Shown here: positions 29,781-35,332 of the stretch, one piece after another
How positions within the stretch are numbered: the first letter of the stretch is position 1
How the letters are laid out: the number at the start of each line of letters is the position of its first letter
DNA from: Pirellulales bacterium
GTDB lineage: Bacteria; Planctomycetota; Planctomycetia; Pirellulales; JALHPA01
Direction of reading: 5' to 3'
DNA length: 64,000 nt
Assembly: GCA_033762255.1 (NCBI GenBank)
Contig: JANRLT010000029.1
Location: 124,001 to 188,000 of the forward strand
Notes under the pieces: generated by a model
Seen by the model: the letters and a program-made list of their open reading frames with translations, nothing else
What the model was told of the DNA's origin: nothing
The model's database searches: none
Made by a program: the position numbers and the translations under genes

Positions 29781-30575
29781 TTACTCCGCCAGGCGCGCGG
29801 CGATGCGCCGCAATTCGAGGGAAAAGGGATGGTTGGGATAAACCGTGGTAAAGATGCCGCTACTGGCCAGACTGGCCATCTCCGTATTGAGCGGCAGCAT
29901 CCCGATGACCGGAGCGCGGTAGGTGGACTCGATTTGCGTTTTGAGGGCATCGCGGTCCAGTCCCTGCGGGACTTTGTTGATGATCAGCAGGATTTCCCGC
30001 ACTTCCAGCCGATGGGCTAGTTCCACGGTGACGGCCGTCCCCTGAAAATCCTGATTGTCCGGCCGCATGATCAGCAAGAATTTGTCGCTGATGGCGATGG
30101 ATAGCAGCGTTTCCTCGTTGACGCCCGGATGCGTGTCGATGAACAAATAATCCAATTCCAGTTCCGTCACCAGTTGCTGGATGCCGTCGTTGAGCTTGCC
30201 CACGTCGTACCCTTCGCGCAACACGCGGGCGATTTCGCCCGAGCGCACACTAGAGGGGATGAGGTAAATCTTGGCCCGGGGGGAAAGTTCGGCACCGGGC
30301 GGGACCGCCACGGCCGTCACGTCGTAGGCCGCTTCCTGGATGCGGCATTTGCCCCACAAAAAGTCGTTGAGCGCAAAGCGTATTTTATCCGCGGATAAGC
30401 CAAAGATGACATGAATTCCCGGCGATTGAATATCGGTGTCGATGATCCCCACGCGTTTGCCGGTCTGCGCGATCAGGGCCGCCAGATTAGCCGTGGTGTT
30501 GGATTTGCCGGTGCCGCCGCGAAAAGAATGAATAGCCACAACTACTGACACAATATATCCTTCAAGAAATGACAC
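29781..30575 (-). CDS. MinD/ParA-family ATPase with Arg in the deviant Walker A signature
   Basis: 264 residues. The P-loop reads FRGGTGKSNTT (about 18-28). In ParA/MinD proteins the deviant Walker A is normally KGGxGKT; here the signature lysine position is arginine (R19) while the phosphate-binding lysine is kept. GIIDTDIQSPGIH is the A' motif and YLFIDTHPGVNEETL is the Walker B region. ParA-like proteins are dimerising ATP switches acting at the membrane or nucleoid. It sits between FHA and glutaminase genes in one transcription unit, not with parB or septum genes, so a partitioning role is unlikely. Confidence 0.8.
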   Translation of the reverse strand: MSFLEGYIVSVVVAIHSFRGGTGKSNTTANLAALIAQTGKRVGIIDTDIQSPGIHVIFGLSADKIRFALNDFLWGKCRIQEAAYDVTAVAVPPGAELSPRAKIYLIPSSVRSGEIARVLREGYDVGKLNDGIQQLVTELELDYLFIDTHPGVNEETLLSIAISDKFLLIMRPDNQDFQGTAVTVELAHRLEVREILLIINKVPQGLDRDALKTQIESTYRAPVIGMLPLNTEMASLASSGIFTTVYPNHPFSLELRRIAARLAE

Positions 30576-30618
30576 CCAACATCAAAAACCATAAACAAAC
30601 CACCGGCGTTGGAATTAA

Positions 30619-31107
30619 CTAGCTCCAGGTGTCTTCCATGATCCGCTTGCCCCGCAAGGCGTTGGCCGCTTGCTTTAATTGCAAAAAGTAGTCACCCTGT
30701 GCGATTTGTTCCACTTCCCGCGAGACTTGCGCGGCGTCCAACTGCAACGCCGGCACCACCACCGGATCAAAGGTGATCGTGCTATGATTATTCTCCGCGG
30801 AATCGCAAGTCATGAATCGCAACGAACAGCCATGCGGGCCCAGCCGAAAAACCACCCCGTCATGCAAATCATATTCATCCACGGCAACACCCTTGATCAT
30901 CAACCGTTGCCGACTGATCGATGACACCCGCCAACCCAGCGAATCATGCGTGAGATGCGCGTGGGCCCGCGAGACATACGGATCGGCAATCACCACGTCG
31001 TTATCCTCGGCCCGACCAAGGGTGATGGATTCGCGATCGGTAAACTGCCAAGTTTGCAAGGGACGCGTTTGGTCCGAATCCAAGAGTTGTAACTGAATAT
31101 TTAGCAC
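30619..31107 (-). CDS. FHA-domain protein
   Basis: 162 residues. The FHA domain covers about residues 8-100: LGRAEDNDVVI (G31, R32), YVSRAHAHL (S46, R47, H49), the residues that contact phosphothreonine in the family. A short helical tail of about 45 residues follows (QVSREVEQIAQGDYFLQLKQAANALRG-type). No kinase or membrane segment. It is the first gene of a unit with a MinD/ParA-like ATPase and glutaminase. In actinobacteria, FHA proteins (GarA, OdhI) control glutamate metabolism, so an analogous role is worth testing. Confidence 0.85.
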   Translation of the reverse strand: MLNIQLQLLDSDQTRPLQTWQFTDRESITLGRAEDNDVVIADPYVSRAHAHLTHDSLGWRVSSISRQRLMIKGVAVDEYDLHDGVVFRLGPHGCSLRFMTCDSAENNHSTITFDPVVVPALQLDAAQVSREVEQIAQGDYFLQLKQAANALRGKRIMEDTWS

Positions 31108-31488: not shown

Positions 31489-32982
31489 ATGGCAGCCTTG
31501 CGACCCCGAATTCGACCCAAACTGCGCGGTTCCGCCACGCCCCAGCCCGGGCTTGTGTTGGATGCCGGAAAGAGTCCCGCTCCAGTCCCCTCCGCCACAG
31601 CGCTGGATGAATTCACGGGGCTATTGCCGGAGGAGACCTTTCCTCCTGTCTTGGCCACGATCCCTTGTGTCCTGCGACAGATTTTTGACCCATCAGCGGA
31701 AATCCTTCCCCTAAAAAATAACCAGGAAGTCACCGCGCGGTCCAACCGGGAAGATTTTCCCGCGCTTGCCGTTACCATGTCCTCCTCTTCGACCGACATC
31801 CTCCACGACCAGCTTCCCATGGTCGCCGCCACGGATCAACCCGACTCTTCAAACGGTGCGGTCCGGTTGGCCAAGCTATTAGGTCCCTTGACCGCCGCAG
31901 CGATTACCGCGGAAACGAGCGCGCACGTCGACCCTAGTGAACAGCCTTCGCCCTCTGTGGATCCCACGCCATTCACGGGAAAATATTGGCCCCGGCGCGT
32001 ATTGGCCTCGCGCTGGCTATGGACAACTTGTGCCATGGTATTGTGCCTGGGGCTAACCAGCTTGGCTCTCAAGTATCGGTTTCAACCTCGAACAGGGGGG
32101 GGAACGGTGTTACCCGCCGAACCGGTCAATACAGCGGTCAAGCCGCAAGCTCCCGCGGCGCAAGTCCCCCGCACAGCCGCGCGGCTCAATTCTTGTTTTG
32201 TTCCTCAAACGGAAACCAGCCCCCCCACCGCTGGTCTGTTTCCCGCGCATTCGCTTCCTTTAGCCAAAGATTCCGCGGTTAACACCCCTGCCACACCTTC
32301 ACCAGGACCGGCGTTAATACCCCCAGGCGCAACCGGGACGAACTCCGGTGTTAACCCTATTCCCGCAACGACGCCCCCAGCGGACGCGGCCATCCCTGCC
32401 CTGGATCAGGTGCCACACTTTGAGGCTAAAGTACCCGATCGATTTCGCACCGCCCAGGTCGAGCCATCTTCCGTTCCGTCGTCTTCAGAAACAAGCGGCG
32501 ACGTGGCAAATGTTTCCCCTGCGGCCAATTCAGCCCCTGTGAATTTTCCGGCAATCAATTCCCCAGCAATGAATTCCCCCGTAGAAGCCACTCAGCCGCT
32601 GATGGCAATTTCGCCGCAAGCCAACATGGTTGTGAATCCTCATTTTCAACCAGCTACCCCGGCAAACGGCATGGCGGCCAATAACACGGCACAAGTTCCA
32701 GCGACCATTGGCCAGGGTCAAATGATTGTTCCACCGTATCAACCCTCTGGTAGTCTCCCTGCGGATTTTGCCTCCCGGCCAATCACGCCCCCTGGCGTCA
32801 ACAATGTGACGGGGGGGCCGCTGCCATTTCCTCCGGCAACCAGTCAATTCCCTCCATTCCAACCGCCGTTAGAACCAGTTTCAACAGGCCCCGCGCCGAT
32901 TTATTCCGCTTCGGGACAAAATCTGTCCGCGGGCGAACCCCGGTTGGATGGAACCATCAACGCCCTACCGATCCGTCGATAA
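31489..32982 (+). CDS. Pro/Ala-rich single-pass membrane protein, first gene of a three-gene operon
   Basis: About 497 residues from ATG 31489 (a TTG at 31480 is also in frame). The cytoplasmic-side portion (about 1-170) is polar and Pro-rich. One transmembrane helix (LWTTCAMVLCLGLTSLAL) lies near residue 185. The outer 290 residues are low-complexity, rich in Pro, Ala, Asn, Thr and Gln, with short repeats of the NSPAMNSP kind. There is no recognised domain. It ends 2 bases before the next gene and is very likely co-translated. An envelope tether or scaffold for its two ATPase partners is an inference. Confidence 0.6.
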   Translation: MAALRPRIRPKLRGSATPQPGLVLDAGKSPAPVPSATALDEFTGLLPEETFPPVLATIPCVLRQIFDPSAEILPLKNNQEVTARSNREDFPALAVTMSSSSTDILHDQLPMVAATDQPDSSNGAVRLAKLLGPLTAAAITAETSAHVDPSEQPSPSVDPTPFTGKYWPRRVLASRWLWTTCAMVLCLGLTSLALKYRFQPRTGGGTVLPAEPVNTAVKPQAPAAQVPRTAARLNSCFVPQTETSPPTAGLFPAHSLPLAKDSAVNTPATPSPGPALIPPGATGTNSGVNPIPATTPPADAAIPALDQVPHFEAKVPDRFRTAQVEPSSVPSSSETSGDVANVSPAANSAPVNFPAINSPAMNSPVEATQPLMAISPQANMVVNPHFQPATPANGMAANNTAQVPATIGQGQMIVPPYQPSGSLPADFASRPITPPGVNNVTGGPLPFPPATSQFPPFQPPLEPVSTGPAPIYSASGQNLSAGEPRLDGTINALPIRR

Positions 32983-32984
32983 TC

Positions 32985-34454
32985 ATGAGCCAATTGGACC
33001 AAGCGTTTATTAAAGCGTTTTCCACCGGATCGGGACGGCTTACGTCCGCGCCTCAGGAAACTTTGGCAGCCGAGGCGGCGCAAACCCCGGCCGCTGATCC
33101 TATCCTTCAGCCCACAGCGCGTTTTATGCAACAGTACGCCGGTGTGATCGAAGTGACAAGTCAAGGCCCGCAAAGCTATGAACCTGTTTTCGCAGCGCAG
33201 GTATCCCCGAACGCGGGAACATCTGCGGCGGTCTCCGCAAGCTCCAGCCAATTGCCCGGCACCTCCGCAAAACAGCAATCCCTTCCCCGTCCCCATGCCA
33301 AGTTTTCGCCCGGAACTGTCCCGGCGACAACCAGTGCCACAGTCACGCCCATCTCGGCCCGGCAAATCTCGCTTCCCGCCGCGTCCGGGGATACACGGCG
33401 TTCCTTACCCGCGACGGCAAAACCCGCGCCTCCGGTGGAACGGCATTGGCATCGCCATGACTCACACCAAATTGGCGGTGAAGCTCAAGGTATCTCCCCC
33501 CGCGGCGAGGGGACGCCGCTGATTGTGGAGGAAGCCACCCCCCCGACCTTGATTGCTGGCGCGTTGCCCCGCGCAACTCCCCCGGTGGAAGCCGAACCCA
33601 CGGCGCGTCCCCTGCCCCAGCCCAGCCCTCCGGCGGATTTTGAGCCGATCGCGGGACGCATCACCGCGGGTAACCGGCCGTCGCTGGTGGAAAGCCACAT
33701 TCCCCCCCAAACCACGGTCGAAACTCCGTTTCGCGCCGCGTACGAGGTCGAACAATTTGCCTGGCTTCCCGTTATCGAAAACTTATGTCGCGACCAAAGC
33801 GCTGGCCTTGCCCAGGTGGTCCGCGAACTGGCCACCGAGTCCGCCCGGGGAAAGCAGGTCTTTGCCCTGACTAGCGTGCAGCGGGGCGAGGGTCGCACCA
33901 CCATGACTCAGTGCCTGGCACGCAGCGCCGCCCTGCAAGGACTGCGCACATGCGTGGTCGATTTTGACACCGACAAACCCCGCCTGGCCGAGCAGCTAGG
34001 CGTGGCGCTGGACGCCGGCTGGGAAAGCCTGATCGAAAGTCCCCGCCCCCTGGCGGAATTGTTGATTGAATCATTGCAAGATCGCTTGAGCGCGTTGTTG
34101 CTAAAGGGGGTGTTGCCGCCGGAACAGTGGCCCGCCCAGGCGTCGCTGTGTCAAACGTGGTTTAACCAATTGCGGCGGGAATTTGATGTGATCCTGGTCG
34201 ATACCGCGCCGGTTGGATTACCACAGGAACAAATCCCGGGAGAAGTGGGAACGGGCGCGCGCGATCAATTGTTGGCGGGCCTGGAAGTGGCCGATGGTCC
34301 GATTGACCGTTGGATCGTGGTGCGGGATGTCAGCCAAACCAGCCTGCCCGAACTGGCCCGCTGGCAGCGGAGGATGCATGCCTTGCATTTGCCGCTATTG
34401 GGCATCTTGGAAAACCGCGCCGAAGCGCGTCTGACCACCGCGGCCAGTGGTTAA
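32985..34454 (+). CDS. CpsD/tyrosine-autokinase-like ATPase with altered P-loop
   Basis: 489 residues. Residues 1-250 are disordered, Pro/Ala-rich. The C-terminal 220 residues resemble the BY-kinase domain of CpsD/Wzc and exosortase-associated autokinases: VFALTSVQRGEGRTTMTQCLA (P-loop near residue 300), CVVDFDTDKPRLAEQLG (A' motif) and FDVILVDTAPVG (Walker B). The invariant Walker A lysine of GEGK(S/T)T is arginine here, and there is no C-terminal tyrosine cluster, so kinase activity is doubtful. It lies 2 bases after the membrane protein gene and about 60 bases before the ExeA-type ATPase. A role in polysaccharide or envelope assembly is inferred. Confidence 0.7.
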   Translation: MSQLDQAFIKAFSTGSGRLTSAPQETLAAEAAQTPAADPILQPTARFMQQYAGVIEVTSQGPQSYEPVFAAQVSPNAGTSAAVSASSSQLPGTSAKQQSLPRPHAKFSPGTVPATTSATVTPISARQISLPAASGDTRRSLPATAKPAPPVERHWHRHDSHQIGGEAQGISPRGEGTPLIVEEATPPTLIAGALPRATPPVEAEPTARPLPQPSPPADFEPIAGRITAGNRPSLVESHIPPQTTVETPFRAAYEVEQFAWLPVIENLCRDQSAGLAQVVRELATESARGKQVFALTSVQRGEGRTTMTQCLARSAALQGLRTCVVDFDTDKPRLAEQLGVALDAGWESLIESPRPLAELLIESLQDRLSALLLKGVLPPEQWPAQASLCQTWFNQLRREFDVILVDTAPVGLPQEQIPGEVGTGARDQLLAGLEVADGPIDRWIVVRDVSQTSLPELARWQRRMHALHLPLLGILENRAEARLTTAASG

Positions 34455-34513
34455 GTTCAGCGGCGGATAGAGTCAAACGACGGCGGGGCGATTTTTTGCG
34501 GTCAGGGATGCTT

Positions 34514-35332
34514 ATGTATGAAAATTATTGGGAACTCACGTGCCAGCCCTTTGCCGAACGGAACGGGTTGGACCTGTATTTTCCCGCCGAATCCCACCAG
34601 GGAGCGTTGCTCAAACTGCGTTATGCCATCCAACAAGGGGCGGGAGGGACGGCGTTGGTCGGTCCCCCGGGCGTTGGCAAAAGCCTGTTAATCGAGCTAC
34701 TCAAAGCGCATTTAGAGGCGGATAACCAGCCGGTCGCACAAGTGAGCTTTCCCCTGCTGCCCGCCGCCGACTTATTAGCGTATCTGGCGGAGGAATTGAG
34801 CGGGACGCGGTTTTTACAGACGCCCGGCCCCCGCGCTAGTTTGCGCCGGATCGAGGATGCCGTTGGGCGCTATGCCGCTTTGCGGCAACGTCCACTGTTG
34901 ATTTTTGATGAAGCCCAACTGCTGCATGACGCCGAGCTGCTGGACATGCTGCCGCTGTTATTAAATCTGCTTCCCGGCGCCAGCGGTTATCCCGTGGCGC
35001 TGTTATTTGTGGGTGAGGGACAACTGCTACGAACGATATCCCGCAATGCGACATTGAACAGTCGCGTTTCGGTGCGTTGTCAGTTGCGGGCCTTGACGCA
35101 ATCAGAGACGGAGCAATACGTTGGCCAACGACTGCAAGCGGCGGGATGTCCGCGGCAAATTTTTACCCGCGCGGCCTGGCCGATACTGTGGCAATTGAGT
35201 GGCGGCATTCCCCGCCGGATCAATCGGCTCTGCGACTTGGCGCTGCTGATTGGCTATGCGGAAAGCCATGACCAGATCACGCCCGAATTGCTGGACAATG
35301 TCCAAGCGGAACTACTCCCCCTGGCGGCTTAA
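34514..35332 (+). CDS. ExeA-type AAA ATPase
   Basis: 272 residues from ATG 34514, which gives MYENYWELTCQPFAE, the usual MYxxxxGLxxxPF start of the ExeA/GspA family; ATG 34508 is also possible. Walker A is ALVGPPGVGKS, Walker B is LLIFDEAQLL, and the C-terminal domain has LSGGIPRRINRLCDLAL, the family's sensor 2 region. Relatives accompany type II secretion and, in exosortase systems, the tyrosine autokinase gene. No peptidoglycan-binding domain is fused. Being third in an operon with a CpsD-like protein supports an envelope-biogenesis role. Confidence 0.8.
   Translation: MYENYWELTCQPFAERNGLDLYFPAESHQGALLKLRYAIQQGAGGTALVGPPGVGKSLLIELLKAHLEADNQPVAQVSFPLLPAADLLAYLAEELSGTRFLQTPGPRASLRRIEDAVGRYAALRQRPLLIFDEAQLLHDAELLDMLPLLLNLLPGASGYPVALLFVGEGQLLRTISRNATLNSRVSVRCQLRALTQSETEQYVGQRLQAAGCPRQIFTRAAWPILWQLSGGIPRRINRLCDLALLIGYAESHDQITPELLDNVQAELLPLAA

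Follow-up and report, generated by a model that had tools for sequence, protein, structure and literature searches.

The DNA considered here is a 64,000 nt stretch of the Pirellulales bacterium contig JANRLT010000029.1 (the window, to whose positions all coordinates refer), in which three co-directional open reading frames, ORF1, ORF2 and ORF3, form a tight operon (Table 1). Our main finding concerns the second of them, a relative of the bacterial tyrosine (BY) kinases that belongs to a family from which the Walker-A lysine has been lost. The three genes are closely spaced, with gaps of 2 nt and about 60 nt, and GGGAGA precedes the ATG of ORF1. A preliminary description of this DNA had proposed an operon of a proline-rich membrane protein, a CpsD-like protein and an ExeA-type ATPase, and the common orientation and short gaps of the genes confirm that arrangement. 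ORF1, described there as an unrecognised single-pass protein, indeed contains a single hydrophobic span and 16% proline, and it returned no match in a protein family search of Pfam and NCBIfam. ORF2 gave weak CpsD/ParA-type matches to TIGR01007 (E 4e-12) and TIGR03018 (E 4e-6), both under the cut-off. ORF3, whose start most likely lies at 34514 as supported by its family, is an AAA ATPase (AAA_22, E 8e-16) carrying the ExeA-type AAA domain and intact Walker A of the ExeA/GspA group. Its nearest model, TIGR03015, matches over the full length of the protein (E 9e-36, 124 bits against a cut-off of 324.5). The protein ends after the AAA domain, and the Pfam search detected no transmembrane or peptidoglycan-binding domain behind it.

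Table 1 Features of the ORF1-ORF2-ORF3 operon, in window positions
Feature	Position	Strand	Basis
ORF1, single-pass, proline-rich, largely disordered membrane protein, 497 aa	31489..32982	+	ORF calls and relatives
ORF1 predicted transmembrane span, residues 176-194	32014..32070	+	hydropathy 1.71 over 19 residues
ORF1 C-terminal RLDGTI, tail motif of the ARLxGTI type seen in relatives	32941..32958	+	by eye and pattern
ORF2, putative BY pseudokinase, 489 aa; disorder at about 13-240, NTPase fold at about 245-486	32985..34454	+	family searches, model, fold matches
ORF2 N-terminal helix MSQLDQAFIKAF, conserved as M[ST]xLDxAFI[KR]A[YF]	32985..33020	+	alignments, model
CGC codon (Arg304) replacing the Walker-A lysine codon	33894..33896	+	sequence, relatives
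ORF3, ExeA-type AAA ATPase minus the membrane/peptidoglycan-binding part, 272 aa	34514..35332	+	family searches

The P-loop of ORF2 reads GEGRTT, so that the window protein carries an arginine where BY-kinases carry their Walker-A lysine. The arginine codon, CGC, is at least two base changes away from any lysine codon, and the last 60 residues of the protein contain no tyrosine. Apart from a short N-terminal helix (residues 3-12), a single-chain AlphaFold model based on 49 family sequences shows disorder up to about residue 240. The predicted local distance difference test score (pLDDT) is below 60 for residues ~20-240 and reaches 92-98 over most of the NTPase domain. The replacement of GEGK(S/T)T by GEGRTT, the absence of a tyrosine tail and a disordered N-terminus of 250 residues had been pointed out in the preliminary description; the first two are read directly from the sequence and the third corresponds to the roughly 240 disordered residues of the model. 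Within the N-terminal helix M1 is invariant and A7 and A11 exceed 90%, in an alignment of members that were picked by that same motif. The folds closest to the model are those of VpsO (2.5e-12), CapAB and Wzc, and a profile search of solved structures returned VpsO (7e-23) in addition to BceF, CapAB, Etk and Wzc. ORF2 is thus predicted to have a BY-kinase (CpsD/VpsO/Wzc)/MinD-like NTPase fold. MinD/ParA proteins likewise matched the ORF2 profile, and the conserved, amphipathic-looking N-terminal helix could anchor the protein to the membrane or to a partner. Both features would suit a positioning system, in which ORF2, like MinD or ParA, acts as a landmark for the placing of an envelope machine and the ExeA-type protein is the effector. 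We consider such a system decidedly unlikely, since an ATP-driven ParA/MinD cycle is unexpected without the P-loop lysine and the nearest relatives of ORF2 are BY-kinases, not MinD.

Relatives of ORF2 were sought in 196 genomes of the same order and were detected in 177 of them at a loose threshold, which also admits Wzc-type kinases. Among other genomes, the 29 that matched ORF2 best include 26 in which an ExeA-type gene lies directly downstream, and the P-loops of this group read GEGRTT, GDGRTT, GEGCT and GDGAT, among others. A second scan covered 84,980 genomes with ExeA alone as the query, and the best 80 of 130 relatives of the operonic ExeA were taken; ORF2 lies directly upstream in 78 of these 80 loci, a pairing that is partly produced by the selection of the loci, whereas the residue count in the same loci is not. 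At the lysine position the 78 proteins show R in 33 cases, C in 15, A in 12, T in 8, V in 5 and G, S and I in one each, with two unreadable and none bearing K. A set of 124 de-duplicated ExeA-adjacent relatives gave R 56, C 30, A 15, T 10, V 6, others 4 and K 1, with two unresolved, and K is therefore found in a single one of the 122 resolved sequences. Two of the 16 members without an adjacent ExeA bear K, and Wzc-type paralogues of the same class retain it in 15 of 21, all six non-K proteins coming from family f7. The missing lysine is a family property that is essentially fixed and no one-off mutation, and its recurrence together with the gene order across an order is far beyond chance. The preliminary description had asked after a fixed arginine in the homologues: the lysine is missing in nearly all of them, but arginine is only the commonest of several replacements. 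Neither a lysine in most homologues nor a scattering of the genes in relatives, the two outcomes it had named as contrary to its proposal, was encountered, and the lysine's absence and the conserved gene pair support its suggestion of a kinase-dead regulatory module beside an ExeA-type ATPase.

A lysine moved to another P-loop position, as in WNK kinases, was also considered. No clear substitute was seen, because a K/R at position -13, upstream of the first strand, occurs in 87 of 144 family members but is common in Wzc-type proteins too, and an arginine at -4 is found in only about half of the family. The non-K proteins of f7 are Wzc-type fused kinases (L262, L264, L265, L266, L267 and L270) with R, R, R, C, T and A, respectively, as their Walker-A residue. 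They retain the Walker-A' Arg and appear to constitute a second, independent pseudokinase-like lineage. The K-bearing members of the ORF2 family (L071, L170 and L152), two of which belong to lineages without an adjacent ExeA, are too few to judge.

Comparison of the remaining catalytic residues separates those that the family has kept from those that it has lost. A T or S at +1 after the P-loop position is present in 141 of 141 members, the first Asp of Walker A' in 136 of 142 (Glu in the other six) and the second in 97 of 142, and the Walker-B Asp is invariant. The Arg of the DxDxR motif in Walker A' persists in only 14 of 144 members versus 21 of 21 Wzc-type proteins, and the C-terminal Tyr cluster is reduced to 0-1 Tyr in the last 25 residues of relatives. 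These retained and lost residues suggest continued selection on the metal/nucleotide pocket but not on catalysis. The conserved +1 Thr/Ser and Walker Asp residues might also be taken to mean that ORF2 is still a working ATPase or kinase with Arg or another residue in place of the lysine, particularly as Arg is the commonest residue there and is often joined by the extra Arg at -4 (51 R/R pairs). This is very improbable, given that about half of the relatives are uncharged at the position (C, A, T or V), mostly with no compensating Lys or Arg, and that the losses extend to the Tyr tail and the Walker-A' Arg. In a likelihood tree built with the P-loop column blanked, the ORF2 family forms one clade on a branch apart from all Wzc-type rows, with a support of 99 by the Shimodaira-Hasegawa-like approximate likelihood ratio test (SH-aLRT). 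The tree contains five K/non-K changes, and the K of the three K-bearing members would more simply be a regain than ancestral because their rows are dispersed among R-bearing ones.

The membrane partner recurs along with ORF2. In 38 of 39 loci from the order, an ORF with one hydrophobic span terminates at the start of ORF2 or close to it, and such an ORF was found upstream of ORF2 in 61 of the 78 second-scan loci by an automatic rule and, with a looser rule, in all 40 loci of a broader set. Sequence conservation within the ORF1 family is limited to short motifs, namely one of the VLxRLPDL type in the cytoplasmic part and one of the RLxGTI type at the C-terminus of many members (19 of 61 equivalents by a strict pattern), neither of which is universal. 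A disordered single-pass partner such as ORF1 is a conserved feature of the family. In f21 genomes, which provide most of loci L137-L154, the ORF1 equivalents are short (about 155-250 aa) and carry another conserved tail of the PGYLLPDDGSEE type. Many of those in L177-L219 have an extreme C-terminal YDRxxSSxY-like tail that is absent from the window ORF1.

ORF3 is the only obvious ATPase of the operon, as Walker A is intact in the ExeA-type protein at 79 of 80 loci, and it may supply the energy for the module. The genome of the window encodes a second ExeA-type ATPase (C70, L035:1504-3174), a 556-aa protein that has a long C-terminal extension and whose gene lies downstream of one for an Ala-, Gln- and Leu-rich membrane protein; longer paralogues comparable to it are common across the order. 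The ORF2 family covers most families of Pirellulales and, elsewhere in the class, occurs in f21, f24 and a few of f22, and plasmid records yielded weak BY-kinase matches only. Most relatives carry a gene of ~1235 aa in divergent orientation to the operon; it has the start motif RILVLDGAMGTM and is metH-like by sequence reading. On the strength of this usual position the operon is a stable core locus, outside any exosortase or exopolysaccharide (EPS) cluster. Its neighbours in the window differ from the metH-like neighbour of the relatives. At 29781-31107 on the minus strand an FHA-domain gene adjoins a MinD-like ATPase reading FRGGTGKSN, which has Arg at the MinD signature-lysine position and retains the P-loop Lys. 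The genes around the operon in the window (FHA, MinD-like, glutaminase and TPR) were considered as functional partners and rejected, as they were not seen to recur next to the module in the relatives inspected.

Co-occurrence was counted over the 196 genomes, 119 with the module and 77 without, and within families by a Cochran-Mantel-Haenszel (CMH) test by GTDB family. The preliminary description had compared the gene pair with exosortase-linked polysaccharide clusters and had judged an envelope link plausible from the PEP-CTERM proteins of the window. The module would then be an accessory of the exosortase/PEP-CTERM system, and a kinase-like gene and an ExeA-type ATPase gene do occur in XrtA loci. 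PEP-CTERM-like proteins are present in the window, where a simple pattern gives three such ends instead of the four reported before, and the same genome has an exosortase. Against this, exosortase (PF09721) is independent of the module, being found in 103 of 119 genomes with it and 61 of 77 without (CMH chi2 0.001), and module-bearing genomes such as G016, G032, G062 and G077 have no exosortase detected. ORF2 and ORF3 also score far under the XrtA models (26 versus 231 bits for TIGR03018 and 124 versus 325 bits for TIGR03015). With no co-occurrence within or across families, the exosortase reading is largely refuted and retains hardly any credibility.

The presence of one Wza-like exporter, by contrast, is strongly associated with the module. 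In genome G034 (loci L165/L194) the gene after ExeA encodes a TPR protein fused to a Wza-like exporter with two Poly_export stretches and SLBB. Exporters of this type occur in 128 of the 196 genomes, usually in single copy and at about 45-82% identity, and they accompany the module in 109 of the 119 genomes that have it and occur in 19 of the 77 that do not (odds ratio 33). The association persists within GTDB families (CMH chi2 31, five strata), and of the 19 genomes with the exporter and no module, 10 still contain ORF2 but no ExeA beside it. The order also shows a conserved pair of genes (L285:7178-10243, L286-L296) in which one for a TPR protein precedes one for a single-copy Wza-like Poly_export/SLBB protein; the two are fused in G034 and probably also in G018. 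Generic Poly_export (186 of 196 genomes) and secretins (194 of 196) are too common to inform. Secretins matter nonetheless for an ExeAB/GspAB-like module, in which the ExeA-type ATPase and ORF1, in the role of GspB, would install a secretin or pilus-gate ring with ORF2 as adaptor. The layout of ORF1 (cytoplasmic part, one span and Pro-rich periplasmic arm) beside an ExeA-type ATPase resembles the type II secretion pair, and secretins occur in nearly all genomes of the order. We nevertheless regard such a module as unlikely: ORF3 is the AAA domain alone and lacks the parts of ExeA that lie in the membrane and bind peptidoglycan, ORF1 is without any Pfam match, and strong secretins are retained in 9 of the 10 module-lacking f18 genomes, so that secretins are not dependent on the module.

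The reading that we favor, with evenly balanced confidence, is that the operon supplies a polysaccharide-export (or similar envelope-polymer) machine with its inner-membrane/cytoplasmic part and that this machine operates without tyrosine phosphorylation, with ORF2 as scaffold or switch and ORF3 as motor. For this machine we infer a physical complex, its energy coupling and its substrate. ORF2 would be a tyrosine pseudokinase, with the MinD/BY-kinase fold and metal-site residues kept and the catalytic lysine gone, and would, between motor and membrane, provide a scaffold or work as a slow switch that senses nucleotide. ORF1 would take the place of the usual two-span Wzz/PCP-2 protein; anchored by one helix, it may meet ORF2 in the cytoplasm, and its flexible Pro-rich arm, ending in a short strand-like motif, would reach through the periplasm and make ORF1 the link to the Wza-like exporter. 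ORF3, as an active ExeA-type AAA+ ATPase, would drive assembly and disassembly cycles of the complex, which would sit under the co-occurring Wza-like outer-membrane/periplasmic exporter. Several observations weigh against this export machine. ORF1 has no sequence relation to Wzz/PCP-2, 10 module-bearing genomes are without the exporter, and the module adjoins the exporter in one of more than 100 genomes, lying elsewhere usually by the metH-like gene. Some Pirellulaceae have ORF1-ORF2 without a recognisable operonic ExeA, which is thus not strictly required. In addition, 35 of the 58 genomes without both module and exporter belong to one family, f8, and because these weigh heavily the co-occurrence reflects few independent losses. 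Only tentatively do we extend the proposal to a change of polymer-export drive that is order-wide and scattered through the class, whereby an ExeA-type AAA+ cycle might have replaced the Tyr-phosphorylation cycle by way of a pseudokinase that preserves its nucleotide site and a single-pass disordered spacer docking on a dedicated Wza-like exporter.

The near-fixed loss of the lysine across the order and beyond, in a defined operon outside polysaccharide clusters, suggests a core envelope feature. If the module does run the exporter, an AAA+ ATPase can replace the phosphorylation cycle that is assumed for Wzc-type systems. Planctomycete envelope biology thereby gains a testable gene set and a candidate partner, and the module is present in the cultured strains Blastopirellula marina and Lacipirellula limnantheis.

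In active BY-kinases Tyr phosphorylation steers Wzz/Wzc oligomers, and in CapAB-type pairs the membrane partner gene lies directly upstream of the kinase gene. The NTPase domain of ORF2 is homologous to those of CapAB/CpsCD, VpsO and Wzc and its membrane partner is likewise encoded directly upstream, but ORF2 has lost the Lys, the Walker-A' Arg and the Tyr cluster, and its one-span partner is unrelated in sequence. To our knowledge, BY pseudokinases have been described in few EPS pathways only. EcpK of Myxococcus xanthus and HfsB of Caulobacter crescentus, with the PCP-2 partners EpsV and HfsA, are BY pseudokinases able to act as scaffolds (PMC12004946). Like them, ORF2 is a stand-alone protein that has the BY-kinase fold, lacks the catalytic set and the Tyr tail, and probably scaffolds a membrane partner. 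Its operon partner, unlike theirs, is single-pass, disordered and without a Pfam match rather than a PCP-2 protein, and its operon includes an ExeA-type ATPase and lies outside an EPS cluster. With the XrtA/PEP-CTERM kinase (TIGR03018) and ATPase (TIGR03015) the operon shares two gene kinds side by side, but it has no active kinase, scores far under the cut-offs and is unlinked to exosortase presence. The ExeA-type AAA domain and the Pro-rich single-pass protein recall ExeA/GspA and GspB, from which the operon differs in that ORF3 is without the membrane/peptidoglycan-binding part, the GspB domain was not found and a pseudokinase is added. In the promonan cluster of Sphingomonas LM7, which comprises prmD (Wza), prmE (AAA+ ATPase), prmF (Wzz) and prmG (CapB), the AAA+ ATPase is required for EPS (PMC11340318). 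The likeness, at the AAA+ level, is that such an ATPase works together with a CapB-type protein and a Wza exporter, but the system is described with an active kinase and a Wzz partner in a full biosynthesis cluster. No description of the ORF1-ORF2-ORF3 module was found in open-licence papers. BY pseudokinases as such are already known, and what is new is the ORF1-ORF2-ORF3 architecture, in which one is combined with an ExeA-type ATPase and a single-pass partner.

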